DNA from: Bordetella ansorpii
Lineage (GTDB): Bacteria; Pseudomonadota; Gammaproteobacteria; Burkholderiales; Burkholderiaceae_B
NCBI RefSeq assembly: GCF_900078705.1
Contig: NZ_FKIF01000007.1
Span: 310,001 to 374,000, forward strand
DNA: 64,000 nucleotides
Direction of reading: 5' to 3'
The translations under genes were made by a program, and so were the position numbers. The notes beneath the pieces were generated by a model. That model did not search any database, was not told where the DNA came from, and saw only the letters and a list, made by a program, of their open reading frames with translations. Within the stretch, counting starts at the first letter, position 1. Each line of letters begins with the position of its first letter. This document shows positions 4,271-38,316 of this stretch, piece by piece.

Positions 4271-4293
4271 TACGGGGCATTCCAGCAAGCCTC

Positions 4294-6207: not shown

Positions 6208-6248
6208 GCCGGGCGGCTCGGCGGGAGAGCGGCCCCATTGAACATTGC

Positions 6249-6782
6249 CTAGCGCCAGCTCTCCGGCTGCACGGTCACCTGGCCCGCGTCGCACGACACG
6301 TACGCCTCGCCGTCCTGCACGTTGACATGCATGCTGAACGTGCGTTGCGCCAGCTCGCCCAGGGCCTGGGTCTGTTCGTACGGCAGGTAGACCACGCGCA
6401 GGTTGCGGGCGCGCTCCAGCTTGTTGCGGATGCCGTCCCACCACAGCTTGCTGGCATGGGCATAGCAATACACGATGACTTCGCGCGCCCGGCCGCAGGC
6501 TTTCAGAATGCGGCGCTCATCGGGCTGGCCGACCTCGATCCACAGCTGGATGTCGCCGGTCAGGTCCTTGAGCCACACGTCGGGTTCATCGGTGTCGCTC
6601 AGGCCCTTGGTGAAGGCCAGGTTCTCGTCGCCATGCAGGGCGAAGGCCAGCAGGCGCACCATCATGCGCTCGTCCGTCTCGGAAGGATGGCGGGCGATGG
6701 TGAGCGAGTGGCTGCCGTAATAGTGGCGGTCGCTGTCGGCGACGTGCAGGTCGGCCTTGTAGATGGTTGCGCGCAGGGCCAT
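6249..6782 (-). CDS. yaeQ: YaeQ family protein
   Basis: 177-residue cytoplasmic protein of the YaeQ family, which has a PD-(D/E)XK nuclease-like fold. Its function is not settled. The match runs end to end: start MALRATIYKADLHVAD, then SLTIARHPSETDERMMVRLLA, DEPDVWLKDLTGDIQLWIE, GQPDERRILKAC and the C-terminal IQDG-like VQDGEAYVS. The length equals that of E. coli YaeQ (about 180). The chosen ATG is the one that starts the conserved block. It converges with the radical SAM gene (41 bp gap) and diverges from the LysE-type exporter. No operon partner is visible. Confidence 0.92.
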   Translation of the reverse strand: MALRATIYKADLHVADSDRHYYGSHSLTIARHPSETDERMMVRLLAFALHGDENLAFTKGLSDTDEPDVWLKDLTGDIQLWIEVGQPDERRILKACGRAREVIVYCYAHASKLWWDGIRNKLERARNLRVVYLPYEQTQALGELAQRTFSMHVNVQDGEAYVSCDAGQVTVQPESWR

Positions 6783-22106: not shown

Positions 22107-24290
22107 CTACCGCCCCATCGCCGGATCACTGACGGACGGCTTGCCCGTCTCGATGCGCCCGGCGTAGCGGCGCTCGTAGTCGGGGTCTTCGCGCACGGTC
22201 GCCGTGAAGTCGTACCAGCTGCCGCTGTTCTGCAGCGGCCAGTGCTGCTCGGCCCTGCCCTGCGCATCCACCGCCACCGTCCAGCTCTGGCCCGCGGTGT
22301 AGTACGCATTGGGCTTGATGTCGAACGTGCAGGCCGTGTCGCCCGTGTTCATGAAGGTGACGTACACGTCGCCGTTGGCCACGTCATAGCAGACGCGGAT
22401 CTCGGGCACGGCCGCGCTGGCGGCGCGCAGCGTGTTCACATTGCCCTTGAAGTGGCGATGGAAACCGTTGGGGCCCAGCACCCACAGGTCGTAGGCGCCG
22501 CTGTCGTCCACCACGCTCCAGCTGTCGTCCAGCTGCTTGTCCGGCTCCACCGTGTAGCGGCGCGGCACGCGGTCCAGGTGCAGGCGGTCGTAGACATGGA
22601 ACACCGCGCCCTGCGTGCCGGTGTTGGAGAAGATCAGCCACATCTTCATGCCCGACACATCGGCGCGGCCGCTGGTGTGCAGCTCGTAGGGCAGCGCGCG
22701 CGAGAAGCGCATGCCGGCGGCCTGGCGCGGCGCCGACTGGTCGGCCTCCGCCGGCACCGCCACCTGCGCCAGCGCGCCCTGCGCCGCGCGCACCGTGTCC
22801 GCCTGCGTCTTGGTCAGCAAGGTCAGGTCGGGCAGCGCCTCGTCGTTCGGATTGGCGAAGTTGAAGGCCGAGGTCATGTCGCCCAGGACGGCGCGGCGCC
22901 AGGGGCTGATGTTCTCTTCCTTCACGCCGAATCGGGCTTCCAGGAAACGCAGCACCGACGTGTGGTCGAACGCCTGTGAATTGACCCAGCCGCCGCGGCT
23001 CCAGGGCGACACGACGTACATGGGCACGCGCGGGCCGGGGCCGTAGACCTGGTTGTCGGCCGGATCCTGCGCCGAGGCCACGGTGTGGTGGTCGGCCAGG
23101 GTGTCCACGGTGGACGCGCCGGCCATCGTGCCGTCGTCGTTGTACGACGGCGCGGCGGGCGGCGGCACGTGGTCGAAGAAGCCGTCGTTCTCGTCGAAGT
23201 TGACGAACAGCACGGTCTTGCTCCAGACGTCGGGGTTGGCCGTCAGCGCGTTCAGCACCTCCTGGATGTACCAGGCGCCCTGGATGGGGCTGGACGGGCC
23301 GGGGTGCTCGGAATAAGTGGCCGGCGCCACGATCCACGAGACCTGCGGCAGCGTGCCGCCCGCCACGTCATCGCGCAGCGCCTGCAGCATCCCGCCGTCG
23401 GGCATCGTGTTGGCCACGCCCTTGTACAGGGGATTCGCGGCATCCACCGCCGGCGTCCAGGCGGGGTACGGCGCGCCGTCCGAGCCGTTGCCAGCCGCCT
23501 CGTTGGCGCGGCGGAATGTCTGGAAACCCGCCAGCGAGTTGTCGGTGAAATTGTCCGGCAGGTTCTGGTAGACCTTCCAGGTCACGCCGGCCTCTTGCAG
23601 GCGCTCGGGATAGGTCGTCCAGTTCCAGCCGGCGGTCGAGGCCTCCAGCCCGTCCCACTGGTTGCGGGTCGAGGGGCCATTGCCCTGCCCCGTGGGGTCG
23701 TTGGTGCCGGTCCACAGGAACAGGCGGTTGGTGTTGGTGCCGCCGTGGGTCGAACAGTGGTAGGCGTCGCACAGGGTGAAAGCGTCAGCCAGCGCGAACT
23801 GGAAACCCAGCTCGGCCTCGCGGTAGTAGCCCATGGACTGGTTGTTCTTGTAGCGCGGCCACTGCTGCATGCGGCCGCTGCCCCAGGCCTGGTGGGCGTC
23901 CACGTAGTCGTGCGGCGTGCCGCTGACGCGCTGCGCGTTGCCCGTGCTGCTGTCCAGGTGGTACGGCATCACGATGCGCGTGCCGTTGGACTGCTCCCAG
24001 ACGCTGCGGCCATCTGGCAGCGGAATGGTGAAGCGGTCGCCGAAGCCGCGCACGCCGTTCAACGTGCCGAAGTAGTTGTCGAACGAGCGGTTCTCCTGCA
24101 TCAGGACCACGACGTGCTCGACGTCGTTGATCGTGCCGGTGCGGTTGTTGGCGGGAATCGCCAGCGCGCGGCGGATGCTGGGCGGGAACAGCGACAGCGC
24201 GGTCATGCCGCCGGCGGCCAGCGCGGTATTGCGCAGGAAGCGGCGCTTGCCGGCGCTGGCCGGGCCGAAGGAATCGTCGTGTTGGGACAT
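22107..24290 (-). CDS. plcN: Phospholipase C, phosphocholine-specific family, Tat-exported
   Basis: 727 residues. The N-terminus has a twin-arginine-type signal (KRRFLRNTALAAGG, residues 15-28) followed by FPPSIRRALAIP, as in Pseudomonas and Burkholderia PLC proteins. The catalytic domain opens with VLMQENRSFDNYFGTLNGVRG and includes DENDGFFDHVPPP and YVVSPWSRGGWVNSQAFDHTS, metal and nucleophile regions of this acid-phosphatase/sulfatase-like superfamily. Two C-terminal PLC repeats (DUF756-like) follow from about residue 500. The family hydrolyses phosphatidylcholine and sphingomyelin outside the cell. In relatives these enzymes leave through Tat and then a T2SS, and a T2SS lies 2.6 kb away. 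plcN versus plcH cannot be fixed by motif. Confidence 0.92.
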   Translation of the reverse strand: MSQHDDSFGPASAGKRRFLRNTALAAGGMTALSLFPPSIRRALAIPANNRTGTINDVEHVVVLMQENRSFDNYFGTLNGVRGFGDRFTIPLPDGRSVWEQSNGTRIVMPYHLDSSTGNAQRVSGTPHDYVDAHQAWGSGRMQQWPRYKNNQSMGYYREAELGFQFALADAFTLCDAYHCSTHGGTNTNRLFLWTGTNDPTGQGNGPSTRNQWDGLEASTAGWNWTTYPERLQEAGVTWKVYQNLPDNFTDNSLAGFQTFRRANEAAGNGSDGAPYPAWTPAVDAANPLYKGVANTMPDGGMLQALRDDVAGGTLPQVSWIVAPATYSEHPGPSSPIQGAWYIQEVLNALTANPDVWSKTVLFVNFDENDGFFDHVPPPAAPSYNDDGTMAGASTVDTLADHHTVASAQDPADNQVYGPGPRVPMYVVSPWSRGGWVNSQAFDHTSVLRFLEARFGVKEENISPWRRAVLGDMTSAFNFANPNDEALPDLTLLTKTQADTVRAAQGALAQVAVPAEADQSAPRQAAGMRFSRALPYELHTSGRADVSGMKMWLIFSNTGTQGAVFHVYDRLHLDRVPRRYTVEPDKQLDDSWSVVDDSGAYDLWVLGPNGFHRHFKGNVNTLRAASAAVPEIRVCYDVANGDVYVTFMNTGDTACTFDIKPNAYYTAGQSWTVAVDAQGRAEQHWPLQNSGSWYDFTATVREDPDYERRYAGRIETGKPSVSDPAMGR

Positions 24291-24544: not shown

Positions 24545-26563
24545 TCACTGCAGCACCTCGGCCACGGAATGGCCGGACAAGGCCAGCGAACGCACCTCGG
24601 TCTCGGTCAGGGCGCGATTCCAGAACGCCAGGTCGTCGAAGTCCATGGTGTAGGCGCGCTTCTCGTAGCTGCCGAGCTTGTTGTAGGAACCGACGGCGTC
24701 TTCGTTCAGGCCGAAATGCGCGCCCAGCGAACCCTCGATGCGCGCCAGGTTCACGCTGCCGGTGGACACGCTGCGCGTGCTGAAGCCCTTGTCCAGGTCA
24801 TAGACGTAGGCCGTCATCGTGCTGGCGGTCTTGTCGATGGACAGCGCGATATAGACCGGCTGGTTGGGCGTGAAGCCGAAGCCGTTGAGGTCCGCGCGGT
24901 TGCTGCCGTCGCCCAGGTTGAAACGCAGTTCGGCGCGCGCCGGATCGTAGCTGGGACGGCTGGTATTCCACTGTGCGACCGTGATGCCGGCGTTCTTGCC
25001 GGTGTTGTAGTCCTTGTTGGCCAGGATGGGCTTGTCGTCGGCCATGCCGTCGGCGCGGTACCAGAAGCCGATGGTGAAGGCGCTGGGCGTGGCGAGCATG
25101 CCGGCCGGGAAGTCCAGCTTGAAGGCGCTCAGGTTGGTGGTGCCGCGCTGGTCGCGGAACATGCGGCCGAAGGGGCCATCGGTGAACTCGGGCACCTGCG
25201 CGCCGTCGTACGGCGTGATGCCGGTGGTGCCCTGCGAGACGTCCTGCAGTTGGTTCTCGAAGGTGTACAGCATGGTCAGGCCGTTGCGCAGCGAGGACTC
25301 CAGCAGCACCGGCGGGGTGTACAGCACCTTGGCCTGCGCCGTGCTGCCCGCGTCGCCGGCCTGCACGGTGTAATTCAAGGTGTGCAGCCCGCCTTCCTCG
25401 AACGTGAAACCGGTGTCCTGGTACTGGGTGGCATCCCCCGGCAGGCGGGCGATTTCCGCGCCGTCGCGCAGCACGGTCACCTGGTCCGGCGCCTGGCCGA
25501 CCAGCGACCAGTTCAGCGTCACGCTGGTGTTGTCGGCGGCAGTGACGGCGGCCAGGCGGCGCACGGCCACGGCGCTGGTCAGCACGGCGCCCGCCATGCC
25601 GGTCCGGGCGCTGGCCTGCATGTGCGCCAACGCGGTCGGCGCCACATCGGCGGCGCTGGGCAGCGCGTACCAGGCCTCGTCCCAGGCGGCCGACAGGTCC
25701 ACGGCGGCGCGGTCGGCGCCCAGCAGATCGGCCCGGTTGGCCGCCAGGAAGACCGTCTTGTTGGCGGTCAGCGGCAGGCCATCGCTGGCGCCGGCGGGCG
25801 ACAGGCCGTGGCTGGCGGTCACCAGCACCAGCCAGTCTTCCTCGGGATGCGCCTGGCGGCGCGTGGCCACGGCGGCCAGCAACTGGCCCAGGCGGGCGTC
25901 GGCCTGGCGCAGCACGGCGGGGTAATCGCCGCCGAAGCCGCCCGACTGGGCGGCGCGCTGCACGGCGCCGAATTGCGCCACCACGGCGTCGTAGCCCTCG
26001 CCGATGCGCGCCTGCGCGTCGCCGGCCACGCAGGCGTCGTCGCCCGCGCAATCGGCCAGAGCCGACAGGTAGCCGGCATCGCGGTCGGCGGTCTCGATCT
26101 GGGCGACCACACTGGTGTGGAAGGCCGCGGCAGTGCGCGCCGCGGGCTGCGCGGTTTTCAGGCGCTTGAACAGCGTGTCGGCGTGCAGGGCCTGGCCAGC
26201 GGCGTTGGAACGCACCTGATGCGTGTCGGCCCATACGCCGGTCAGCACGGTGGCCCAGCCGGGCGCGTCCAGCGTGGCTTGCTGGGTGGGAGTGCTGGTG
26301 ACGCCGCCCGTCCAGCCGCGCGTCAGCGTCAGCTGGGCCAGATTGGGCAGCGTGCCGCCGGCCGCGCCGGCCTGCACCGCGTCGTAGGTGGCGCCGTCCA
26401 GGCCGATCAGCAGCATCTTCTGCACGGCCGGCTGGCCCGCGGGCGGCGTCACGGGAGGCTGCGCCGCCGGCTCGTCGCCGTCATCACCGCCACCGCCACA
26501 GGCCGCCAGCACCGTGCTGACGAAGAGGGGGGCAACCCATCGGCACCATTTCGTGTTCTTCAT
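24545..26563 (-). CDS. Alkaline-phosphatase-superfamily lipoprotein with FnIII-like and LamG-like domains
   Basis: 672 residues. Signal peptide with lipobox VLAACGGGG (Cys22). Residues 48-260 resemble the type I phosphodiesterase/nucleotide pyrophosphatase fold (MLLIGLDGATYDAV, PGWATVLTGVWADTHQV). However, two usual active-site positions look altered: the nucleophile region reads TLDAPGW and the late metal motif usually seen as DHG reads SHG (251-253). An FnIII-like segment (about 340-430) and a concanavalin/LamG-like domain (about 470-660, FTIGFWYRADG) follow. It is first in a three-gene minus-strand set with a small lipoprotein and phospholipase C. Whether it is enzymatically active is uncertain. 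Confidence 0.75.
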   Translation of the reverse strand: MKNTKWCRWVAPLFVSTVLAACGGGGDDGDEPAAQPPVTPPAGQPAVQKMLLIGLDGATYDAVQAGAAGGTLPNLAQLTLTRGWTGGVTSTPTQQATLDAPGWATVLTGVWADTHQVRSNAAGQALHADTLFKRLKTAQPAARTAAAFHTSVVAQIETADRDAGYLSALADCAGDDACVAGDAQARIGEGYDAVVAQFGAVQRAAQSGGFGGDYPAVLRQADARLGQLLAAVATRRQAHPEEDWLVLVTASHGLSPAGASDGLPLTANKTVFLAANRADLLGADRAAVDLSAAWDEAWYALPSAADVAPTALAHMQASARTGMAGAVLTSAVAVRRLAAVTAADNTSVTLNWSLVGQAPDQVTVLRDGAEIARLPGDATQYQDTGFTFEEGGLHTLNYTVQAGDAGSTAQAKVLYTPPVLLESSLRNGLTMLYTFENQLQDVSQGTTGITPYDGAQVPEFTDGPFGRMFRDQRGTTNLSAFKLDFPAGMLATPSAFTIGFWYRADGMADDKPILANKDYNTGKNAGITVAQWNTSRPSYDPARAELRFNLGDGSNRADLNGFGFTPNQPVYIALSIDKTASTMTAYVYDLDKGFSTRSVSTGSVNLARIEGSLGAHFGLNEDAVGSYNKLGSYEKRAYTMDFDDLAFWNRALTETEVRSLALSGHSVAEVLQ

Positions 26564-26924
26564 TCTTCGAGCTTCTCGTTGTTGTGGCCGCAAAACGGCG
26601 GCCCGGTCAGCTCGACATGCTGGAGGCGGGAAGTGAATGGGGGATGAAGCAAAGCGGAAATCGGCTGATCCCAGGATCAGGAAATCTTTGCAGTCCCCGG
26701 CACCATCATTGCGATGAGCCTGCGAATCTTTGCAACCGAATGCTGCCGGCGCGTCAATCGGCCTGCGTACTGGCCCGAATACGACAGCGCGCCGCGTCCG
26801 ATGCCGGGCGTGCGGAAACCCACCCGCGCGGCGGCGGAGCCTGTAAACTGCTGCGTCGCTGTCCATAAACTGTCATGCGCCACGGGTATGGTCCGCCATT
26901 CCCGACCGCCGCCGTCCCGTATTC
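26564..26924. other. Divergent intergenic region between the lipoprotein/PLC set and gspC
   Basis: 361 bp without a convincing gene. A 10-bp direct repeat AATCTTTGCA occurs at 26683-26692 and 26725-26734, 42 bp apart (about four helical turns), and could be a regulator site. No clear consensus promoter was found; TAAACT-like -10 candidates lie near 26845-26870. Confidence 0.4.
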
Positions 26925-27368
26925 ATGCGCTTCACCGCCCGCTCCTTCCGCCCCACCCTGCCCGGTGCCGCCCGCCTGGCCGCGATCCTCGCGGCAGCCG
27001 CGGCGGTCGGCGTCTGGGGCGCGATCCTGCTGGCGCCCAGCCCCGACCGGCTGCCGCCCGCTGTCGCGTCGGCCCCGGTGCGGCAATCCAACGTCGACCC
27101 CGTCGCGCTGTGGTTCGGCCGCGATGGCGTGCTGCAGACGCAGATCGCGGTGCTGGGCCTGATTGCCCAGGGCGCCAATGGCGCCGCGGTCATCAGCGTC
27201 AACGGCGGCCCGCCCTCGGCCCTGGCCGTCGGCCAGACCGCGGCGCCCGGCATCGTGCTGGCCGCGGTCGATTCGCAGGGCGTGGTGCTCGACGCCAATG
27301 GCACGCGCACCCGCGTGGCGGCGCCGCCCTACGACGCGGCGCCCGGCGGCATCACCGTCGTCCGCTGA
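26925..27368 (+). CDS. gspC: T2SS protein GspC, short form without PDZ domain
   Basis: 147-residue inner-membrane protein. One N-terminal transmembrane segment (about 16-37) is followed by a periplasmic HR-type domain (NVDPVALWFG, LLGLIAQG-like VLGLIAQGANGAAVISVNG). HR domains contact the N0 domain of secretin GspD. Classical GspC has about 270 residues with a C-terminal PDZ or coiled-coil domain, which is absent here. First gene of the gspC-G-H-I-J-K-L-M-N run; a 123-bp gap separates it from gspG. Confidence 0.85.
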   Translation: MRFTARSFRPTLPGAARLAAILAAAAAVGVWGAILLAPSPDRLPPAVASAPVRQSNVDPVALWFGRDGVLQTQIAVLGLIAQGANGAAVISVNGGPPSALAVGQTAAPGIVLAAVDSQGVVLDANGTRTRVAAPPYDAAPGGITVVR

Positions 27369-27491
27369 GGGCCCGGCCTCGTACCGACAATCAATTCTTG
27401 CAATTCAATTACATTTCAAGCAGGCTACGCTGTTTTGTCATATTCGGACGCGAAAATGCCGGGCTTGACTGATTTTTCCAAGGATTCCCAC

Positions 27492-27920
27492 GTGCACAGG
27501 TACCCCCTGAAGGCTCGCCGCCAGCAAGGCTTCACGCTGATCGAGATCATGGTGGTCGTCGTGATCATGGGCATTCTTGCCGCCCTGATCGTGCCGCGCG
27601 TGCTGGATCGCCCCGACCAGGCCCGCCAGGTCGCCGCCAAGCAGGACATCTCCGGCCTGATGCAGGCGCTGAAGCTCTACCGCCTGGACAACGGCCGCTA
27701 CCCCACCACCCAGCAAGGCCTGCGCGCCCTGGTCGAGCGCCCCGAAGGCGCCAAGGCCTGGCGTCCCTACCTCGAGCGGCTGCCCAACGACCCGTGGGGC
27801 GCGCCCTATCAGTACCTCAACCCGGGCGTCAAGGGCGAGATCGACGTGTTCTCGTTCGGCGCCGACGGCAAACCGGGCGGAGAACAAGGCGATGCTGACA
27901 TCGGCTCGTGGGAGCTCTGA
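27492..27920 (+). CDS. gspG: T2SS major pseudopilin GspG, GTG start
   Basis: 142-residue major pseudopilin, the main subunit of the T2SS piston. I chose the GTG at 27492 because AAGGA (27480-27484) lies 7 bp upstream and it yields a compact prepilin leader ending RRQQG before FTLIEIMVVV, with Glu at +5. The mature protein has the conserved ALKLYRLDNGRYPTTQQGLRAL and the calcium-loop region with DPWGAPYQYLNPG. An in-frame ATG at 27435 is less well placed. It overlaps gspH by 29 bp. The leader needs a prepilin peptidase, not encoded in this window. Confidence 0.95.
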   Translation: MHRYPLKARRQQGFTLIEIMVVVVIMGILAALIVPRVLDRPDQARQVAAKQDISGLMQALKLYRLDNGRYPTTQQGLRALVERPEGAKAWRPYLERLPNDPWGAPYQYLNPGVKGEIDVFSFGADGKPGGEQGDADIGSWEL

Positions 27921-28383
27921 ACGGGGCTTCACGCTCGTTGAAGTCCTGGTAGTCCTGGTCATCATCGGCATCGGCGCATCCCTGGTCAGCCTGGCCGCCT
28001 TCTCCGGCCCCGACCGCAGCCTGCGCAGCGATGCCGAACGGCTGATGGATGCCTTCTCCGCCGCGCAAAGCGAGGCCCGCAGCGACGGGCGCGTCATTCG
28101 CTGGCGCGCCGACGGCGCCGGCTGGTTCTTCGAGCGCCGCGGCCGCTCCGATCAGCTCTCCGCGCAGGACGACGGCCCGTCCCGGCCCGATCGCTTCAAG
28201 CAGGACGACCTGCTGGGCGAGCGCGGCTGGACCAAGCCGCCCGTCACCGTGCGCACCGATCCCGCCATGCCGCTGGTGTTCGGCACCGAATGGATCGCAC
28301 CGCCCATGACACTGCAGTTGCAGGCCAATGGCGACACCCTCACCATCACGCGCGATGCCGCCGGCCGCTATGACATCCAATAG
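27892..28383 (+). CDS. gspH: T2SS minor pseudopilin GspH
   Basis: 163 residues. Prepilin leader MLTSARGSSERG precedes FTLVEVLVVLVII with Glu at +5. The mature part contains SDAERLMDAFSAAQSEARSDG, the helix-to-strand transition typical of GspH, and a long polar loop. It overlaps gspG at its start and gspI at its end. GspH joins GspI-J-K-G near the pseudopilus tip. Confidence 0.9.
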   Translation: MLTSARGSSERGFTLVEVLVVLVIIGIGASLVSLAAFSGPDRSLRSDAERLMDAFSAAQSEARSDGRVIRWRADGAGWFFERRGRSDQLSAQDDGPSRPDRFKQDDLLGERGWTKPPVTVRTDPAMPLVFGTEWIAPPMTLQLQANGDTLTITRDAAGRYDIQ

Positions 28384-28753
28384 CGCACGCCGCGAACGCG
28401 GCTTCACCCTGATCGAAGTGCTGGTGGCGCTGGCCATCATCGCCGTGGCGATGGGCGCCGCCATGCGCGCCACCAGCGTGATGATCAGCAACAACCGCGC
28501 CCTGCAGGACAAGACCCTGGCGTTGATGGCCGCCGAGAACGCGCTGGCGCAGATGCGCCTGGAGCAGACGCTGCCGCCGCCGGGCACGCGCAAGGTGGCC
28601 TGCCCGCAAGGCGGCCAGGCCATGCAGTGCGAACTGGTCACCACCAGTTCGCTGAACCGCGGCTTCCGCCAGGTCACGGTGCGCGTGCATCCGGCCGGCG
28701 ACGACGATGCCGTCATCACCCAACTGAGCGGCCTGGTGTCGAACCTGCGATGA
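28370..28753 (+). CDS. gspI: T2SS minor pseudopilin GspI
   Basis: 127 residues from the ATG at 28370, which gives leader MTSNSARRERG before FTLIEVLVALAII. The conserved AENALAQMRLEQ and CELVTTSSLNRGFRQVTVRV fit GspI, which nucleates the tip complex with GspJ and GspK. It overlaps gspH by 14 bp and gspJ by 4 bp. Confidence 0.92.
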   Translation: MTSNSARRERGFTLIEVLVALAIIAVAMGAAMRATSVMISNNRALQDKTLALMAAENALAQMRLEQTLPPPGTRKVACPQGGQAMQCELVTTSSLNRGFRQVTVRVHPAGDDDAVITQLSGLVSNLR

Positions 28754-29364
28754 GCGCGCGCCCTTTCGAAGCGGCTCGCGGCCGCCGGCAACGCGGCTTC
28801 ACGCTGATCGAAGTGCTGGTCGCCATCGCCCTGATGGCCCTGGTCAGCCTGATGGCCTGGCGCGGCCTGGCGCAGGTGTCCGACGCCCGCGAGTGGATCG
28901 ACGCCGAGGCGCAGGACAACGACATGGTCGTGCGCGTGCTGGGCCAGATCGAACGCGACGTCGATCAGGCCTACGTGGGCCCGCGCTCCGCCGCGCCGGA
29001 TGGCGCGCTGCCCGACGGCGTGAACGTGCTGCGCGGCAACGGCGCCGCGCCCCTGCTGGACATCGTGCGCGCGGCGCCCGACCAGCCAGGCATGTGGCAG
29101 CGCGTGGTGTGGCAGTTGCGGCCCGACGGACTGTGGCGCTACGTGGGCGCCGCGGGCACCCGCTACCCCCTGCCTGCGCCCGACACCGGCGCGCTGGTGA
29201 TGCCGCAGGTCACCGCGCTGCGGCTGCGCGCCTGGGTGCCGGGCAGCGGCTGGGCCAACCTGCCTGCCGCCCTGCCCGCGCAGGCCACCGGCCTGGACAT
29301 CGCGCTCGAACGCCGCCATCGCGAAGTCCTGCAGCAGTTCAACCGCATCCTGGTGCTGCAATGA
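28750..29364 (+). CDS. gspJ: T2SS minor pseudopilin GspJ
   Basis: 204 residues from the ATG that overlaps the gspI stop codon. Prepilin leader ends RRQRG before FTLIEVLVAIALM. The ERDVDQAYVGPRSA region and the C-terminal ALERRHREVLQQFNRILVLQ-like end are typical of GspJ, part of the pseudopilus tip. Confidence 0.92.
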   Translation: MSARPFEAARGRRQRGFTLIEVLVAIALMALVSLMAWRGLAQVSDAREWIDAEAQDNDMVVRVLGQIERDVDQAYVGPRSAAPDGALPDGVNVLRGNGAAPLLDIVRAAPDQPGMWQRVVWQLRPDGLWRYVGAAGTRYPLPAPDTGALVMPQVTALRLRAWVPGSGWANLPAALPAQATGLDIALERRHREVLQQFNRILVLQ

Positions 29365-30356
29365 CGTCACGCCGTCCTTCCCGCCAGCGCGGCGCCGCGG
29401 TCATCGGCGCGCTGATCATCGTGGCCATCGTGGCCGCGCTCAGCACCAGCCTGTTCCTGCGGCAGACGGCCACCCTGCGCCAGGTCGAGAACGAAGAAGC
29501 GCGCGTGCAGGCGCGCTGGCTGCTGATGGGCGGCATCGACTGGGCGCGCCTGATGCTGCGCGACCACGCGCGCCGCGAAGCCACCACCCAGGGCGACCAG
29601 ATCTGGGCCACGCCGGTGCAGGACACCCGCATCGAGCAGCCCGGCGACGACCGCGTGGCCATCTTCTCGGGTTTTCTCGAAGACGAGCAAGGCAAGTACA
29701 ACCTGTACAACGTGGCCATCGGCGGCAAGGTCTCCGAGGCGCAGCTCGAAATGCTGACGCGCCTGCTGTCCAACCTGAACCTGCCGGCCTCGCTGGCGCC
29801 GCAGATGGCCAACCTGATCGCGCAGGCCCAGCCGCCCGCGCCGGTCAGTTCCTCCGACGGGCAGACCTCCTCCCCCGGCACCACCACCTCGTCGGCCAGC
29901 GAGGCCGCCGAGGAAGCCCTGCAGGCCAAGGCCCGGACCGATGCGCCGCTGCCGCGCGGCATCGACGACATCGCCAACCTGCTGGGCGTCGATCAGGTCT
30001 CGCGCCAGGCCCTGCGGCGTACCATGACGGTGCTGCCCGCCCGCACCACCGTCAACGTCAACACCGCGCCGCCCGAAGTCATCGCCGCGCTGGTGCCCGG
30101 CCTGTCGCTGGGCCAGGCGCGCAGCCTGGCCGGCGACCGCGACCGCGGCCGCTGGTTCCTGAACAGCGGCGACTTCGGCAACCGCGTCACCGGCACCGGA
30201 TCCGAAGTGCAAGTGCCGACGGTGGCCACCACCAGCACCTGGTTCATGGCCACGGGCACCGTGGTCTACGAGCGCGCCCGCGTTACCATGCGCGCGCTCA
30301 TGCAAAGCTCCACCGGAGGGGCGCCTCGCACCCTCTGGACACAGGAAGTCATGTGA
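29361..30356 (+). CDS. gspK: T2SS minor pseudopilin GspK
   Basis: 331 residues. Leader MTSRRPSRQRG precedes AAVIGALIIVAIV; as in other GspK proteins the +5 residue is not Glu, which fits a subunit capping the tip. The large head has ARWLLMGGIDWARLML and the helix-hairpin-type NVNTAPPEVIAALVPGLSLGQA. A Ser/Thr/Pro-rich loop (about 156-180) interrupts it. It overlaps gspJ and gspL by 4 bp each. Confidence 0.93.
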   Translation: MTSRRPSRQRGAAVIGALIIVAIVAALSTSLFLRQTATLRQVENEEARVQARWLLMGGIDWARLMLRDHARREATTQGDQIWATPVQDTRIEQPGDDRVAIFSGFLEDEQGKYNLYNVAIGGKVSEAQLEMLTRLLSNLNLPASLAPQMANLIAQAQPPAPVSSSDGQTSSPGTTTSSASEAAEEALQAKARTDAPLPRGIDDIANLLGVDQVSRQALRRTMTVLPARTTVNVNTAPPEVIAALVPGLSLGQARSLAGDRDRGRWFLNSGDFGNRVTGTGSEVQVPTVATTSTWFMATGTVVYERARVTMRALMQSSTGGAPRTLWTQEVM

Positions 30357-31357
30357 AGAATATCCTGCGCATCGCCCTCCCTCCGCTGGCCGACCTGACG
30401 GCCAGCTCGCTGCTGGACTACGCCTGGTTCGACCGGCGCGGCCAGCGCGCCCGCCATGGCACCCTGGCGCCCGCCGGCCTGGCAGGCGCCTTTCCGAACA
30501 TTCCGGTGCAGGCCGTGCTGCATCCGCACGATGCCATCCTGGCCAGCGTGCAGGTGCCCGCCGTGGCCGCCGCGCGCTTCGATGCCGCCGTCAACGGCGC
30601 GCTCGAAGCCCTGGTGCTCAGCGACCTGTCCACCCTTGCCGTGGGCCACGGACCGCGCGCCGCCGATGGCGCCGTGGCGGTGGCCTGGGCCGACAGCGCC
30701 GCGCTGCAGCGCGCCTGGATGATGCTGTCGCAAGCCGGCCTGCAGGTGCGCGCGCTGGTGCCGGTGCAGGTGCTGGCTGGCGATGCGGCCGACGCCGACG
30801 CCCCGCTGGGTTCGCACGAAGACCCGCGCTGGAACCACGACGCGCCGTCATGGTCGCTGGCGCTGCCGCACCTGGCGCCGCAGCGCCCCTCGCGCTGGAA
30901 GCCGGCGCTGCGCTGGGCCGCCGTCGCCGCGGTGCTCTGGATCGCCGGGCTGAATTTCTACGCCGCGCAGTTGCGCGGGGAAGCCACCCGCCTGCGCGAG
31001 ACCATGGTCTCGCAGGTGCGCGACACCTTCCCCGGCACGCCCGTCGTGCTAGATGCGGTGCGCCAGGCCGAGCAAGGCTACAACGCGCTGCTGGCCGGCA
31101 ACGGCGCCGGCAGCGCCGGCGACTTCATGACGCTGGCGCGCGGCGCGGCCCAGGTGCTGCCGTTCGCCGCCGACAACGTCGAAAAACTGACCTACAAGGA
31201 CCAGACGCTGTTGCTGGAACTGGCGCCGGCCAAGGACGGCAACGACGACCGCGTGGGCGATGTGCCGGCCATCATGGCAAAGGCCACGGCCCTGGGCCTG
31301 CGCATCGAGCGCGAAGAGAACACGCCGAATTGGCGCATCCTGCAGGCGCAACCATGA
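30353..31357 (+). CDS. gspL: T2SS assembly protein GspL, GTG start
   Basis: 334 residues with an N-terminal cytoplasmic actin-like domain (about 1-180), one transmembrane helix (about 185-204) and a periplasmic ferredoxin-like domain. GspL links ATPase GspE to GspM and the pseudopilins. It begins with GTG in the overlap with the gspK stop (MKNILRIALPPLADLTASSLLDY). It is somewhat shorter than classical GspL (about 380-400). Confidence 0.88.
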   Translation: MKNILRIALPPLADLTASSLLDYAWFDRRGQRARHGTLAPAGLAGAFPNIPVQAVLHPHDAILASVQVPAVAAARFDAAVNGALEALVLSDLSTLAVGHGPRAADGAVAVAWADSAALQRAWMMLSQAGLQVRALVPVQVLAGDAADADAPLGSHEDPRWNHDAPSWSLALPHLAPQRPSRWKPALRWAAVAAVLWIAGLNFYAAQLRGEATRLRETMVSQVRDTFPGTPVVLDAVRQAEQGYNALLAGNGAGSAGDFMTLARGAAQVLPFAADNVEKLTYKDQTLLLELAPAKDGNDDRVGDVPAIMAKATALGLRIEREENTPNWRILQAQP

Positions 31358-31977
31358 CCACCAGAACCTCCACCTTCCTGCCGATGTGGCACAAGCTGCG
31401 CGACCGCTATGCGCAGGCCCGGCGCCAGGGCCAGGCCTGGCTGGCCCGCCTGGCGCCGCGCGAGCGCCGCCTGCTGGGCATCGCCGCGGCGGTCGTGGGC
31501 CTGGCGCTGGCCTGGCTGGTCTTCATCGAACCGGCCATGAAATCGGTGCGGGACCTGGGCGTCGAATTGCCCAAGCTGCGCGCCCAGGCGGCCACCGTGG
31601 CCGACCTGACCGCCCGCGCGCGCGGCCTGCGCCGTGGCGGCGAACATACCGCCGGCACCCTGCCCACCGATGCCGAACTGCGCGCCAGCCTGCACCAGGC
31701 AGGGCTGTCCGAGAACCAATGGTCGGCCGCGCCGGCCCAGCCCGCAGCGGGCGCGGCCGCAGACGCCAAGCCCGGCCTCACGCTCACGTTCACCGAAGCC
31801 TCTTCCGTCGCCGCGCTGCGCTGGCTCGACGGCGCCCCGCGCGACTGGCGGCTGGTGGTCACCGACGTGACGCTCACCCGTCCGCGCGACGCCGACGACC
31901 GGCGCCTGCCCGGCCGCCTGAGCGGCACCGCCACCCTGGTCCCCTACGACGCGGCGCCGAAGGCTCGGGCACGATGA
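31354..31977 (+). CDS. gspM: T2SS assembly protein GspM
   Basis: 207 residues: a cytoplasmic N-terminus ending LAPRERRLLGIAA, a single transmembrane helix (about 40-58) and a periplasmic domain with the repeated LTARARGL/LRASLHQAGL type helices. It pairs with GspL in the inner-membrane platform. Start and stop overlap the neighbouring genes by 4 bp. Confidence 0.9.
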   Translation: MTTRTSTFLPMWHKLRDRYAQARRQGQAWLARLAPRERRLLGIAAAVVGLALAWLVFIEPAMKSVRDLGVELPKLRAQAATVADLTARARGLRRGGEHTAGTLPTDAELRASLHQAGLSENQWSAAPAQPAAGAAADAKPGLTLTFTEASSVAALRWLDGAPRDWRLVVTDVTLTRPRDADDRRLPGRLSGTATLVPYDAAPKARAR

Positions 31978-32720
31978 TCGAATTGCTGCGCAAGTTCCGC
32001 ATCGGCACCCTCGTGCTGGCGGCGGTGGTCGCCCTGGCGGCGGCGCTCACGGTATTGCCGGCGCGCTGGCTGCTGTGGCTGATGCCCGCCGACGCGCCCA
32101 TCACGGTCGTCGAGGCCAGCGGCACCCTGTGGTCGGGCACCGCCTGGATCGCGCTGGGCAGCCCGCAATCGCGCCGCATGCTGACCGAGCCGGTGCAATG
32201 GCGCTGGAACGGCGCCTCGGCCGAGGTGCGCCACCCCTATCTGCGCGGCCCCGTCAAACTGTCCTTCGGACTGGGCGGGGTGTCGGTCTCGGCGCAGCAG
32301 GCCACGCTGCCCGCCGCCGTGCTGGCCGGCATGGGCACGCCCTGGAACACCATGTCGCCCGGCGGCCAGATCGACGTGCAATGGCGCGCGTTCACCGCGG
32401 GCGCCCTGGCGCAAGGCACGCTGGCCGATATCTACTGGCGCAACGCCAGCGCCGCCATGGCGCCCATCGCCCCCATCGGCGACTACCACGTGCGCCTGGA
32501 GGGCAGCGGCCGCAACGTCAAGATCACGCTGTCCACCGACAAGGGCGTGCTGCAACTGACCGGCCAGGGGGAATGGACCGGCCGCCGGCTGAATTTCCAG
32601 GGCCGCGCCAAGGCCTCGGACAAGGCCAGCGACACGGAACAGGCCGCGCTGACCGGGCTGCTGACGGCGATCGGGCCCGAGCGCGACGACGGACATGCGT
32701 TCGGGACGGGGCGTCTGTAA
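31974..32720 (+). CDS. gspN: T2SS protein GspN
   Basis: 248 residues with one N-terminal transmembrane helix (about 10-30) and a periplasmic beta-rich domain (VVEASGTLWSGTA, MSPGGQIDVQWRAFTAGALAQG, GDYHVRLEGSG) that is characteristic of GspN. GspN is present in only part of T2SS systems and its role is not clear. Last gene of the plus-strand T2SS run; a bidirectional terminator follows. Confidence 0.92.
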   Translation: MIELLRKFRIGTLVLAAVVALAAALTVLPARWLLWLMPADAPITVVEASGTLWSGTAWIALGSPQSRRMLTEPVQWRWNGASAEVRHPYLRGPVKLSFGLGGVSVSAQQATLPAAVLAGMGTPWNTMSPGGQIDVQWRAFTAGALAQGTLADIYWRNASAAMAPIAPIGDYHVRLEGSGRNVKITLSTDKGVLQLTGQGEWTGRRLNFQGRAKASDKASDTEQAALTGLLTAIGPERDDGHAFGTGRL

Positions 32721-32900: not shown

Positions 32901-34331
32901 CTAATCGTCGCGCGTCACCCGCACGATTTCCTCGGGCGACGTCACGCCCGCCTCGATCCAGCGCTGGCCGTCTTCACGCATGTTGTGCATGCCCGACGCC
33001 GCGGCGGCCTGGCGCAGGGCCTGCTCGTCGCGGCCTTCATGGATCAGCGTGCGCGCGGTGTCATCCACCACGAACAGCTCGTGGATGCCCGAACGGCCGC
33101 TGTAGCCCGTATGGTTGCAATGCGGGCAGCCCACGGCGCGGTACACCGTGGAGCCATCGGCCAGCACCTCCGGCTTGCGGCACTCGGGGCACAGCTTGCG
33201 CACCAGCCGCTGCGCCAGCACGCCCAGCAGCGACGAGGCCAGCAGGAAGGGCTCGACGCCCATGTCCGTCAGGCGCGTCACCGCCGACACCGAGTCGTTG
33301 GTGTGCAGCGTGGCCAGCACTAGGTGGCCCGTCAGCGAGGCCTGCACCGCGATCTGCGCGGTTTCCAGGTCGCGGATTTCGCCGATCATGATCACGTCCG
33401 GATCCTGGCGCAGGATCGCGCGCAGGGCCATGGCGAAGCTCATGTCGATCTTGGCGTTGACCTGCGTCTGGCCGATGCCGGGCAGGTCGTATTCGATCGG
33501 ATCTTCCACCGTCAGGATGTTGCTGGTGGAGGCGTCCAGGCGCGACAGCGCCGCGTACAGCGTGGTGGTCTTGCCGCTGCCGGTCGGACCGGTGACCAGC
33601 ACGATGCCGTGCGGCTGGCGGATCAGCTTGTCCAGCCGGCCCAGCACGATGGGGCTCATGCCCAGCTTCTCCAGTTGCAGGCGGCCGGCTTCCTTGTCCA
33701 GCAGCCGCAGCACCGCGCGCTCGCCGTGGCCCGTGGGCAGCGTCGAGACCCGCACGTCGATCGGGCGGCCGCCCACGCGCAGCGCGATACGGCCGTCCTG
33801 CGGCAGGCGTTTCTCGGCGATGTCCAGGTGCGCCATGATCTTGATGCGCGAGATCAGCGCCGAATGCAGCGCCTTGCGCGGCGACACGACGTCGCGCAGC
33901 GTGCCGTCCACGCGGTAGCGCACCACCGAGTGGGTTTCGAAGGGCTCGATGTGGATGTCGCTGGCGTTGTCGCGCGCGGCCTGGGCGAACAGCGCATTGA
34001 TCATCCGGATCACCGGCGCGTCGTCCTGCGCTTCCAGCAGGTCGGCCACCTCGGGCATGTCCTGCAGCAGGCGGTCCAGGTCGATCTCGTTCTCGGCCAC
34101 GCCCATCACGGACGCGGCGTCCTCGGTATCGCTGTAGGCGGCCGTCAGCATGGTCTCAAGCGCGCTGTCCTCCACGCTGACCACCGGCACCTCGCCATGG
34201 CAGCGCAGGATCTCGCGCACCGCCCAGGCCGGCGTGCGCGGGCTGACCGTCAGTTGCACGGCGCCCGGCCGCATCGACAGCATGGCCCGGTGCGCACGCG
34301 CCCAGGCATAAGGCAAGGGATGAGGATTCAT
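32901..34331 (-). CDS. gspE: T2SS ATPase GspE
   Basis: 476-residue secretion ATPase that drives pseudopilus assembly at the cytoplasmic membrane. Walker A GPTGSGKT is at about 248-255, the Asp/His boxes include [12 protein letters not shown] and ATLHTNDS, and Walker B is VIMIGEIRD (about 313-321). The C-terminal metal site has two CxxC pairs (about 381/384 and 402/405, CPEC and CPHC). The N-terminal N1E-type domain is short compared with XcpR. It lies directly downstream of gspD (9 bp gap) and runs opposite to gspN. Confidence 0.96.
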
Positions 34332-34340
34332 CTCCCGCCC

Positions 34341-36983
34341 TTACATGTTCGTCACGAGTTCGGGCTTGAAGCCAAGCTGGCGCAGCAGGTCCAGCGAGGT
34401 GTCCACCGTGGTGGCATCGCGCGCCACGGCCGCGCGCACCACCACGCCCAGGCCGCCAGGGCCCACGCGGGAATAGGCATTCAGGCCGCTGATCTGCACG
34501 CGCTTGACGATCTGGTCGGCCTCTTCCTGGGTGTTCACCGAGGCGATCTGCAGCGTGGTGGTCGTGGTGTCCGCCTGGCCATAGATGGCCGTCGGGTCGC
34601 GCGCCACGCTGACGCCCAGCGGCAGGCTGGCGCGGATGGGCTTGTTCGCCTCGTCCTGGCCGCCCGGCAGCTGCGGCATCTGGCGCACGGCCGTCGACTG
34701 CGAGGACATCGGACCCGGACGGCGCATGGTGTCGGCCACGTGCTCGGGACGCATGTCGTACGGGCGCTCGCCCACCACCGGCACGTTGGCCGGCGGCAGT
34801 TGCGCGCCCTGCATGTCGGGCAGCAGCCAGTGCTGGCCCGGCTGCGCGTTGCTCTGTGCCCGGCGCATGTAGTCGTAGCGGTCCAGCGTCACGTTGGCGC
34901 TGCTGCGCGAATCGCGCAGCACGTAGGGGCGCAGGAACACCATCAGGTTGGTCTTGGTGCGCTGGCGCGAGTCGTACCGGAACAGCGCGCCCAGCAACGG
35001 GATGTTGCTCAGGCCGGGCACGTTGTTCGAGGAAATCGTCATGCTGTCCTCCAGCAGGCCGCCCAGCACGATGATCTGGCCGTCGTCGATCAGCACGCTG
35101 GTGTCGATCGCGCGCTTGTTGGTGACGATGCCGGTGGTGGCGTTGGAGCGCGCGTCGTCGATGCTGCTGACTTCCTGGTAGATGTCCAGCTTGACCGCGC
35201 CGCCTTCGGAAATCTGCGGACGGATGTTCAGCTTCAGGCCGATGTCCTCGCGCTCGACCGTCTGGAAGGGATTGCTGGTGCTGTCGCTGCCCGAGGTGAC
35301 GTACGACCCGGTGACGAACGGCACGGTCTGGCCAACCAGGATGCTGGCCTGCTCGTTGTCCAACGTCAGCAGGTTCGGCGTGGACAGGATGTTGGCCTGC
35401 CCGGAATCCTGCAGCGCGCGGGCCAGCACGCCCAGGTTGATGACCTGGTTGCCCAGCACGTCGACCGTGCCCTTGACCAGCCCCAGGCTCAGGCCGCTGC
35501 CCAGCGAGTCCAGCGTGGTGGGGCCCGTGGCGGTGATGCCGCTGCCGCCCAGGTTGGTGCCGCCGATGAAGCTGGTGCGGCCGCTGGACAGGCCGTTGCC
35601 GCCGGTCATCCACTGGATGCCGAACTCGGAACTCGAATTGGCGTTGACCTCGACGATCATGCTCTCGACCAGCACCTGCGCGCGGCGCTGGTCGAGCTGG
35701 TCGATCACTTCGCGCAGGCTGCGGTACAGCGGCTCGGGCGCGGAGATGATCAGGGTGTTGGTGGAGGGATCGGCCTGGATCACCGCGCCGCCAGCCGCGT
35801 AGGACACGGGCTGGGACGCGTCGTTGGGGTCCTCGCGGGAAATCTGCTGCGTGTTGCTGCCCAGGCCGCCGGAATTGCTGCTGCCCAGGCCGCTGCTGGC
35901 GTTGTTGCCGCCGAAGCCGCGCGAGCTGCTGCGCGTCGAACCGGAAGACGTGCTGCGGCCGCTCAGGCCGGTGCCCGCGCCGGCCACCGCACCGGCCGCC
36001 CCCGGGCCCGACGTGCCGATGCTCTGGGTCTGGCTCTGGCCGTTGAGCAGGCCGCCCAGCACGTGCGCGATGCGCGTGGCCTGCGCATTGCGCAGGTACA
36101 CCACGTGCAGGTTGCCGGCGTTTTTCTGGCGGGCATCCAGCTTGGCGATCAGGTCGCGCGCCAGGCGCGTGCGCGCCGGGTTGCCCGAACGGATCACGAC
36201 GCTGTTGCTGCGCGGATCGGCCACGATGGCGATGCGCGAGGCATCCGCGCCCGCGCCGCCCTGGCCAGGGGCGCCCTGCCCGTCCATCAGTTGCGAGGCC
36301 AGGGCCGCGATATCGGACGCGATGCCATATTCGATGGGCACCACGTCGGTGTCCATCGACGAGGCCACGTCGATGCGCGCGATCACCTGGGCGATGCGCT
36401 CCAGATTGTCGGCGTAATCGGTGATGACCAGGGTGTTGTTGCCCGGATAGGCGTTGATCGGGTTGTTCGGCGGTACCATCGGGCGCAGCACCGGCACCAG
36501 ATTGGCGGCGTTCTCGTACTTCAGCGAGAACACCCGCGTGACCATCTGGCTGCCGCGGGCGAAATCGTCCATCGACATCGAGCCGCTGGCGCCCCGGCCC
36601 GTGCCGGAACCACGCGGCCCGTCGGTCACCACCGGGCTGCCCTGCAGCTTGCCGTCGGCCTCGGGCACCACGCGGGTCACGCCGTCCACGTCGACGATGG
36701 CAAAACCCTGCAGCCGCAGCGCGCCGGTCAGCATGGACAGCGCCTGGTCGCGGCTGACGGGCCGCTCCGACACCAGGGTAATCTTGCCCTTGACGCGCGG
36801 GTCGACCAGGAAGTTGCGCTGGGTGAATACGGACAGGGCACGCAGGACGGCCGGAATGTCGGTGTCGACGAAATTCAGGCTGACCCGGTTGTCGCTCTGT
36901 TGCGCTTGCGCGCTCTGTACCGGCAAGGCGCAACTACTGGCGGCAATGACGGCGGCCAAGCCGAACGACAGGATTTGACGCAT
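34341..36983 (-). CDS. gspD: T2SS secretin GspD with C-terminal SPOR-like domain
   Basis: 880 residues; most GspD are 650-700. Signal peptide ends VQSAQAQQ. N0 (about 30-105, VSLNFVDTDIPAVLRAL), then N1-N3 repeats (ENAANLVPVLRPMVPPN, VVYLRNAQATRIAHVL), a Gly/Ser-rich linker inside N3 (about 323-378), and the secretin domain (about 430-695) with VGQTVPFVTGSY and the closing VPGLSNIPLLGALFR. Beyond the usual end, a proline-rich linker leads to residues about 808-877 (TTLQIASVNTQEEADQIV, GLNAYSRVG, LLRQLGFKPELV), which fit the SPOR peptidoglycan-binding fold. No pilotin S-domain is obvious. It is followed by gspE and is divergent from gspF. Confidence 0.95.
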   Translation of the reverse strand: MRQILSFGLAAVIAASSCALPVQSAQAQQSDNRVSLNFVDTDIPAVLRALSVFTQRNFLVDPRVKGKITLVSERPVSRDQALSMLTGALRLQGFAIVDVDGVTRVVPEADGKLQGSPVVTDGPRGSGTGRGASGSMSMDDFARGSQMVTRVFSLKYENAANLVPVLRPMVPPNNPINAYPGNNTLVITDYADNLERIAQVIARIDVASSMDTDVVPIEYGIASDIAALASQLMDGQGAPGQGGAGADASRIAIVADPRSNSVVIRSGNPARTRLARDLIAKLDARQKNAGNLHVVYLRNAQATRIAHVLGGLLNGQSQTQSIGTSGPGAAGAVAGAGTGLSGRSTSSGSTRSSSRGFGGNNASSGLGSSNSGGLGSNTQQISREDPNDASQPVSYAAGGAVIQADPSTNTLIISAPEPLYRSLREVIDQLDQRRAQVLVESMIVEVNANSSSEFGIQWMTGGNGLSSGRTSFIGGTNLGGSGITATGPTTLDSLGSGLSLGLVKGTVDVLGNQVINLGVLARALQDSGQANILSTPNLLTLDNEQASILVGQTVPFVTGSYVTSGSDSTSNPFQTVEREDIGLKLNIRPQISEGGAVKLDIYQEVSSIDDARSNATTGIVTNKRAIDTSVLIDDGQIIVLGGLLEDSMTISSNNVPGLSNIPLLGALFRYDSRQRTKTNLMVFLRPYVLRDSRSSANVTLDRYDYMRRAQSNAQPGQHWLLPDMQGAQLPPANVPVVGERPYDMRPEHVADTMRRPGPMSSQSTAVRQMPQLPGGQDEANKPIRASLPLGVSVARDPTAIYGQADTTTTTLQIASVNTQEEADQIVKRVQISGLNAYSRVGPGGLGVVVRAAVARDATTVDTSLDLLRQLGFKPELVTNM

Positions 36984-37107: not shown

Positions 37108-38316
37108 ATGCCCTCTTATCGTTACGAAGCCACCGACGCCCTGGGCAAGATCGTGCACGGCACGATCGAAGCCGAAACCGAGCGCGGGGCCCGCAACCAG
37201 TTGCGCAGCCGTGGCCTGCTGCCGCTGTCCACCGCCCCCACGGCGGCCGCCAGCGGCTCCCTGTCCGGCCTGTTCCGCCCGCGCCTGTCGGACGCCGACC
37301 TGGCCTGGATGACGCGCCAGCTGTCCAGCCTGCTGGCCGCCAGCCTGCCGCTGGACGCCGCGCTCAGCGCCACGCTGGACCAGTCCGAGAACAAGCACAT
37401 GGCCGCGCTGCTGGCCGAAGTGCGCGCCGACGTGCGCGCCGGCCATCGCCTGTCGGTCGCACTGGCCTCGCGTCCCCGGGATTTCCCGGAGATCTACCGC
37501 GCGCTGGTCGGCGCCGGCGAAGAATCCGGCGACCTGGCACAGGTCATGGACAAGCTGGCCACCTACATCGAAGAACGCAACGCCCTGCGCAGCAAGGTGC
37601 TCACGGCCTTCATCTATCCCGCCGTGGTGGCCTGCGTCTCGGTCATCATCGTGATCTTCCTGCTGGGCTACGTGGTGCCGCAGGTGGTCACGGCGTTCAG
37701 CCACGCCAAGCAGCAACTGCCGTTGCTCACCCGCATCATGCTGGGCGCCAGCGACTACGTGCGGCAGTGGGGCTGGCTGACGGCCCTTGCCATCGGCTTG
37801 CTGGTGGCGCTGTGGCGCTACACCCTGCGGGCGCCCGCGGCGCGCATGGCCTGGCATAGCCGCATGCTGCGGCTGCCGCTGGTCGGACGCTTCGTGCTGG
37901 GCGTGGATGCGGCGCGCTTCGCCTCCACGCTGGCCATCCTGACCGGCAGCGGCGTGGCCCTGCTGACCTCGCTGGACGCCGCGCGCCGCACGCTGGGCAA
38001 CGACCGCCTGCGCGCCGCCGTGGACGACGCCAGCGCCCGGGTGCGTGAAGGGGCCTCGCTGTCGGCCTCGTTGGGGGCGCAGAAGTGCTTTCCCTCGCTG
38101 CTGGTGCACCTGATCGCCAGCGGCGAGAAGACGGGCCGGCTGCCCGAATTGCTGGAGCGCGGCGCGAACAATCTGTCGCGCGACCTGGAGCGCCGCGCCA
38201 TGGCCATGACCGCGCTGCTCGAACCGATGCTGATCGTGGTGATGGGCGGCATCGTGCTGATGATCGTGCTGGCGGTGATGATGCCGATCCTGGAGATGAA
38301 CCAACTGGTGCGCTGA
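37108..38316 (+). CDS. gspF: T2SS inner-membrane platform protein GspF
   Basis: 402 residues. It starts MPSYRYEATDALGKIVHGTIEAE, the standard GspF opening. Two homologous T2SSF domains follow (WMTRQLSSLLAASLPLDAAL and RFASTLAILTGSGVALLTSL), with three transmembrane segments and the C-terminal PMLIVVMGGIVLMIVLAVMMP. It forms the base of the pseudopilus assembly machine with GspE, GspL and GspM. It stands alone on the plus strand, divergent from gspD (124 bp), and is separated from the main gsp run by gspE and gspD. Confidence 0.96.
   Translation: MPSYRYEATDALGKIVHGTIEAETERGARNQLRSRGLLPLSTAPTAAASGSLSGLFRPRLSDADLAWMTRQLSSLLAASLPLDAALSATLDQSENKHMAALLAEVRADVRAGHRLSVALASRPRDFPEIYRALVGAGEESGDLAQVMDKLATYIEERNALRSKVLTAFIYPAVVACVSVIIVIFLLGYVVPQVVTAFSHAKQQLPLLTRIMLGASDYVRQWGWLTALAIGLLVALWRYTLRAPAARMAWHSRMLRLPLVGRFVLGVDAARFASTLAILTGSGVALLTSLDAARRTLGNDRLRAAVDDASARVREGASLSASLGAQKCFPSLLVHLIASGEKTGRLPELLERGANNLSRDLERRAMAMTALLEPMLIVVMGGIVLMIVLAVMMPILEMNQLVR

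Follow-up and report, generated by a model that had tools for sequence, protein, structure and literature searches.

A C-terminal SPOR domain on the type II secretin of Bordetella and its relatives: a probable in-built peptidoglycan tether

The nearest described counterpart is the type II secretion system (T2SS) secretin of Legionella, LspD, for which a predicted SPOR domain and a localising role have been put forward (PMC6617341, in the text available) and which the accessible part of a second source describes as the only T2SS component known with such a domain, at its N-terminus (PMC9239104). According to passages of the latter, T2SS secretins are otherwise attached to the wall and inserted with the help of GspA/GspB (ExeAB) and OutB (PMC9239104), and excerpts on the Pseudomonas aeruginosa secretin PilQ report that its AMIN domains bind the wall and are needed for midcell and polar placement of the pilus machinery (PMC5285504). 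How a 15-subunit T2SS pore crosses and is fixed to peptidoglycan, and where in the cell this occurs, is an open question.

Here we describe a GspD from Bordetella ansorpii that ends in a SPOR domain, encoded in the window (the whole stretch of 64,000 nucleotides that was analysed). Like LspD, as far as the available text on that protein goes, it is a T2SS secretin for which a SPOR domain is predicted and whose system appears to lack GspA/GspB (PMC6617341, PMC9239104); in LspD, however, which we compare by its partial published description, the domain precedes N0, whereas in the window GspD it lies at the C-terminus, where it would start from the outer-membrane side. Only a signal peptide and seven residues stand before N0 in the window protein, and the sole SPOR stretch placed by Pfam is residues 808–877. 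PilQ is similar in bearing a wall-binding module on a secretin (PMC5285504, from the same excerpts), but that module is an AMIN domain, is N-terminal and belongs to a type IV pilus rather than a T2SS. GspA/GspB and OutB are separate proteins, in contrast to the in-cis module of the GspD tail. The AMIN fold differs from the SPOR fold, no AMIN match was found by Pfam in the window GspD at E ≤ 1, and the PilQ model TIGR02515 reached 231 bits, under its cut-off of 284. No C-terminal SPOR domain on GspD was reported in the titles, abstract openings and passages covered by our literature search (a scope outside which fell most subscription papers and all preprints). What is new is a SPOR domain joined to GspD at the end opposite to that of LspD and passed down through a large part of one bacterial family.

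The secretin and its C-terminal domain

The window T2SS is laid out as gspC-G-H-I-J-K-L-M-N on the forward strand, gspE and gspD on the reverse strand and gspF on the forward strand, with the following features (window coordinates):

26925..27368, + strand: gspC, from its gene-order position and a weak PF11356 match (21.0 bits, cut-off 27)
27489..32720, + strand: gspG, H, I, J, K, L, M and N (NCBIfam and Pfam)
32901..34331, - strand: gspE ATPase (TIGR02533, 707.8 bits), next downstream of gspD in the same direction
34341..36983, - strand: gspD, T2SS secretin of 880 aa (TIGR02517, with the open reading frame and its translation)
36900..36983, - strand: signal peptide, residues 1–28 (signal-peptidase-I-like site AQA-QQ, read from the sequence)
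36669..36878, - strand: N0 domain, residues 36–105 (PF21305, 83.6 bits)
34914..35417, - strand: secretin domain, residues 523–690 (PF00263, 171.8 bits)
34848..34907, - strand: S-domain-like helix, residues 693–712 (helix 4–23 of the tail model, pLDDT about 50–69)
34563..34847, - strand: linker, residues 713–807 (14 Pro in 95 residues; pLDDT blocks 40–79)
34353..34562, - strand: SPOR domain, residues 808–877 (PF05036)
34548..34550, - strand: Gln812, at the position of the glycan-contacting Gln (RlpA Q270, FtsN Q251), from alignments and the structural-match offset
34434..34436, - strand: Arg850, aligned with the RlpA R311 position and invariant (33/33 tails)
37108..38316, + strand: gspF (PF00482, 210.8 bits)

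The gsp genes surrounding gspD scored above their cut-offs for E, F, G, I, K, L, M and N (G, I, K and L with NCBIfam models, M and N with PF04612 and PF01203) and below them for C, H and J (gspH, its frame counted from FTLVE onward, 75.4 of 80 and gspJ 40.8 of 64.85 with NCBIfam). GspD itself matched the equivalog model TIGR02517 at 634.9 bits (cut-off 351) and carries both the N0 (PF21305) and the secretin (PF00263) domains that mark a T2SS secretin, with Secretin_N stretches also placed by Pfam; its closest named relatives are from B. genomosp. 13, at 93% in the best segment, and from B. ansorpii, at 91%. Between residue 690 and the SPOR domain lie 117 residues, comprising a helix which, from GspD anatomy, we take to be the pilotin-binding S-domain (its R, Y, M, R and Q are invariant in alignment A2) and a linker that is probably disordered, its model being of low confidence; three residues follow the SPOR domain. 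An earlier note, made from the sequence alone, had put the protein about 200 residues over the usual length, a fair estimate given that the eight longest solved GspD chains among the best matches span 524–657 aa.

The same note had proposed that the extension ends in a SPOR domain with a strand-helix-strand-strand-helix-strand layout, and this is borne out by profile, fold and a key Gln. PF05036 matched the full protein at 21.9 bits (E = 2.3e-4, cut-off 21), the isolated 85-residue tail at 24.3 bits (E = 3.9e-5) and the window GspD in a whole-genome search at 23.7 bits; taken alone, the profile match of this one protein is thus only just over the cut-off. However, a chance match is ruled out, because 30 of 33 GspD tails, the window's included, matched PF05036 at E ≤ 0.1 (best 4.4e-7) and the predicted fold fits solved SPOR domains. 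The two computational checks that the note had suggested, a Pfam search and a structure prediction, gave a SPOR match at residues 808–877 and an RNP-like beta-alpha-beta-beta-alpha-beta SPOR fold, in which the proposed layout is present (strands 13–21, 40–45, 52–59 and 80–82 and helices 24–36 and 62–74 of the 85-residue model); the note's residue limits agree with those of Pfam, while its nucleotide limits (34341–34560) shift to 34353–34562.

Among solved structures, the tail model found its best match in the SPOR domain of P. aeruginosa RlpA, both without and with glycan (6i05/6i09), and its best neighbours were glycan- or wall-binding SPOR domains, although no Foldseek match reached E ≤ 0.001 (best 9.4e-3, the RlpA SPOR domain). 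Searches of the sequences of solved structures returned no strong SPOR chain with the tail profile (CwlC at E = 0.11 and DedD at E = 0.45, neither of them ahead of an antibody chain and two designed proteins) and no SPOR chain among 22 with a single tail. On the strength of the predicted model, the fold comparison alone was decisive for SPOR identity within this line of evidence.

Distribution, inheritance and loss of the fusion

The fusion is usual among the Bordetella GspDs found and occurs in part of the family. In the genus sample, GspD was found at E ≤ 1e-60 in 6 of 15 genomes and all 11 GspDs, three of them from the window's own genome, reached the SPOR end; the window's own genome has two further T2SS loci (L153, G000:C6:194000-213000, and L154, G000:C8:218000-237000), and all three GspDs found there carry SPOR. 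Named-genome loci had a SPOR end in 23 of 79 cases (Bordetella 10/12, Achromobacter 13/30, others 0/37, two of the 37 lacking the end motif and being scored by their ends alone). Across the family sample, GspD was present at E ≤ 1e-60 in at least 104 of 200 genomes, and the tail profile A1 recovered at least 43 GspD-type tails in at least 37 of the 200, both being lower bounds that reflect the part of each genome's candidates scored in both searches. These tails stood well apart from other SPOR proteins (at least 57.8 bits, against at most 38.1 for SPOR proteins in frames of 119–347 aa), and 42 of the 43 lay in frames of at least 835 aa, the remaining one in a cut 120-aa frame. Single members of A1 have matches to extra domains (Transglut_core at E = 3.8e-4 in one, and six weaker others).

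Beyond the family the fusion appears to be rare. In the order sample, GspD was found at E ≤ 1e-100 in 104 of 300 genomes, and outside the family no match extended beyond query residue 811; the point at which a match stops does not itself prove a missing tail, because in ten tail-bearing family genomes the whole-protein match also ended near residue 735–741. When outside-family tails were cut out, which the end motif allowed for 24 of 26 (two lacked it and were left uncut), all scored at most 1.3 bits with the tail profile. SPOR domains as such were found by PF05036 in every one of the 300 order genomes, including, among the matches listed, frames of 705–899 aa in G460, G375, G370 and G444, those of G375 and G370 on different contigs from their GspD matches. 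In the class (369 genomes) and phylum (398 genomes) samples, a search at E ≤ 1e-6 gave no further secretin carriers apart from three genomes, all from a single genus that belongs to a different family of the class; one more weak tail match (30.4 bits) fell in a 210-aa frame. The locus read from one of the three (L173, G765:C85:3000-16000) encodes an 842-aa GspD at 4003–6528, probably acquired by transfer, that scores 761.7 bits against P0001 and ends in a SPOR tail of 56.7 bits; the other two genomes gave a similar match.

To assess ancestry, a tree was built from 85 non-redundant GspD cores, 29 of them from proteins with SPOR and 56 from proteins without, the tail being excluded throughout; a quick method was used, with SH-aLRT support only. 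The tree omits an incomplete copy of the window locus, sequences above 95.5% identity to another, the five frames that lack the end motif and loci obtained afterwards, including the transferred one. The SPOR label required 5 changes, compared with 24.4 when labels were shuffled (0 of 500 shuffles as low). The simplest reading is a single gain at the base of a group uniting the Alcaligenaceae-type cores and a nested Pseudomonas-type group, followed by four losses, of which two fall within Achromobacter, one in a Pusillimonas/Alcaligenes group and one in the nested Pseudomonas-type group. The change count does not separate gain from loss; a single origin is favoured because the 43 tails are far more alike than any other SPOR domain found. 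On sequence grounds, then, the GspD-SPOR fusion is inherited from shared ancestry.

Against the three other SPOR proteins of its own genome, named here from their sequences (L001–L003), the GspD-tail profile scored 14.5 bits (DedD-like), 6.8 (FtsN-like) and 4.7 (RlpA-like), and against E. coli 9.3 for FtsN and 5.6 for RlpA. The DedD-like protein (L001) shares the motif LQIAS with the GspD tail but is a separate, shorter protein, and 14.5 bits is too low a score to claim it as the origin of the domain.

Clean loss of the domain is seen in Achromobacter, in which 17 SPOR-less GspDs, sited at two places on the tree, stop right before the SPOR domain. In all 17 loci the gspD stop and gspE start overlap as ATGA, an arrangement shared with most SPOR-bearing Achromobacter, and closer examination of 11 of them shows gspE directly following gspD with no SPOR remnant; as read from these junctions, the loss is a clean deletion (L029, L031–L034, L036–L038, L041, L043, L044, L046, L047, L050, L051, L086 and L091). 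A further 15 SPOR-less cores nested in the SPOR-bearing group come from Pseudomonas, one Pantoea record and one Gemmatimonadota metagenome-assembled genome record (L060–L062, L064, L069, L070, L074, L076–L079, L081, L087, L088 and L093), and their nested placement points to transfer and subsequent loss; misnaming or contamination may affect the Pantoea and Gemmatimonadota records. Where present, the domain is, judging by dN/dS, kept by purifying selection about like other parts of GspD (15 close pairs: SPOR 0–0.25, core 0.07–0.15, linker 0.07–0.34), a constraint that is real but no tighter than elsewhere, since the SPOR value exceeds that of the core in 9 of the 15. Having been lost more than once while the rest of GspD was kept, the domain is dispensable for a T2SS. 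A natural in-cis tether together with cleanly SPOR-less Achromobacter relatives would offer a direct test of wall binding in secretin placement and assembly.

Ligand face and role of the tail

RlpA contacts denuded glycan through a polar site made up of R311 and the side chains of Q270, R302 and R309, and basic-patch residues differ among SPOR domains (PMC6895207, in the passages available). The strand-1 Gln is present in the GspD tails, its position (Gln812) holding Gln in 31 of 33 and Glu in 2, and Ser815 aligns with FtsN S254 (Ser in 15/33). Of the basic patch, Arg occupies the R311 position throughout, the equivalent of R302 is uncertain, and at the R309 position 27 of 33 tails have Val and one has Arg. 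The tail also differs from the RlpA domain, which sits on an outer-membrane lytic transglycosylase, at the strand-1 Phe (F274), where it has Val816 (Val in 21/33, Phe in 0/33), and it lacks the G-P-F that is common after strand 3 of SPOR domains. The ligand face therefore appears to be retained in part, which makes glycan binding likely, not certain; with Val at the R309 position, G-P-F gone and Val816 in place of Phe, the affinity may be low or the ligand changed.

We judge it probable, at somewhat better than even confidence, that the last 73 residues of this GspD form a SPOR domain whose role is that of an in-built peptidoglycan tether. The basis for this in the present analysis is the SPOR profile, the fold, the key Gln, purifying selection and the shared ancestry of the fusion; from there we infer its periplasmic topology, glycan binding, avidity and localisation. 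Solved GspD structures place the end of the secretin in the periplasm, immediately beneath the outer membrane; from such a site the 95-residue linker would be long enough for the SPOR domain to reach the wall, and its beta-sheet could hold peptide-stripped glycan strands; fifteen subunits would place about fifteen SPOR domains on each pore, giving strong avidity. The tail would thereby do in cis the job that GspA/GspB or AMIN domains do elsewhere, PilQ being a precedent for machinery placed by a secretin's own wall-binding module (PMC5285504). No GspB scored above the T2SSB cut-off in the genome, with a model whose sensitivity is unproven because it matched 0 of 14 control genomes, and no PG_binding_1 match fell in any genome frame longer than 410 aa, the size class of GspA; an in-cis tether would fill this gap. 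One sub-threshold GspB candidate (C8:235625, T2SSB 23.3 bits, cut-off 28.4) was rejected, as it lies in what looks like gspC of the C8 locus, and the window gspC also matches T2SSB weakly (18.3 bits).

If the domain keeps the usual SPOR specificity, septal placement of GspD, as the earlier note had envisaged, would follow and is plausible. Monomers or pores would be captured at division sites and new poles, because amidases make denuded glycan there, and the wall at those sites would also be open enough for the secretin to pass. We offer more tentatively the full version of this proposal, which seems possible without being the likelier outcome: that in Bordetella, part of Achromobacter and relatives, without GspAB or a classical pilotin, the T2SS pore is brought to the division site by its fifteen SPOR tails and machines are installed only at amidase-opened wall. 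Secretion capacity would then be coupled to cell division. A tail that anchors the pore to any exposed denuded glycan, with no special placement and a T2SS that is not septal, would draw on the same sequence evidence; with some residues missing from the basic patch, which recognises the muramic carboxylate, specificity could be looser, and repeated loss suits a helpful but dispensable anchor. We nonetheless regard such an unplaced anchor as rather unlikely, since SPOR domains are described, in the available passages, as strictly specific for denuded glycan, and known SPOR proteins as tied to division or morphogenesis (PMC6895207). A partner other than glycan (a neighbouring subunit, an outer-membrane or T2SS protein, or an unknown pilotin) would fit the missing R309 and G-P-F and the conserved tail positions A27, R33 and G38, which lie off the sheet in helix 1 or the loop behind it; RNP-like folds are able to bind other things. 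Set against a protein contact are the sheet positions that are kept, Gln812 and Arg850, and the glycan- or wall-binding nature of the nearest structural neighbours, so that we consider it improbable.

That the SPOR domain stands in for a pilotin, also raised in the earlier note, is unsupported and is in our view very improbable indeed. The note's remark that no pilotin was visible holds for the whole genome with the PulS/OutS and T2SSS_2 models (an E. coli control was positive for both), in accord with such a role, but these models do not cover all pilotin types. The GspDs of the C6 and C8 loci have typical lipoprotein signals (LVAGC and LAGC), and a GspD with a signal of this type would be self-piloting, as HxcQ is; yet both bear the SPOR tail. 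In Achromobacter, moreover, GspDs with and without SPOR share one type of signal peptide. The presence of SPOR therefore does not go with a need for a pilotin. By a rough lipobox rule, which misses some true lipoboxes (for example, that of L015) and counts the doubtful one of the window, all four combinations occur among the 85 cores (SPOR and lipobox 7, SPOR only 22, lipobox only 19, neither 37). The doubtful case is a lax lipobox, AASSC, that also fits the window signal peptide beside the AQA-QQ site; its Cys is found only in the closest relatives (L006/L016, L007/L030), the others having no Cys or a Cys elsewhere.

Genes beside the T2SS loci

Two reverse-strand genes near the window gspC are possible T2SS substrates by their position: a phospholipase-C-type phosphoesterase (22107–24290; PF04185 and PF05506) and, at 24545–26866, a phosphodiesterase whose lectin-like domain scores slightly under the cut-off. 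DING/PstS-like genes adjoin both further T2SS loci of the genome, and FecI/FecR/STN-like genes adjoin the one on C6 (all named by eye).
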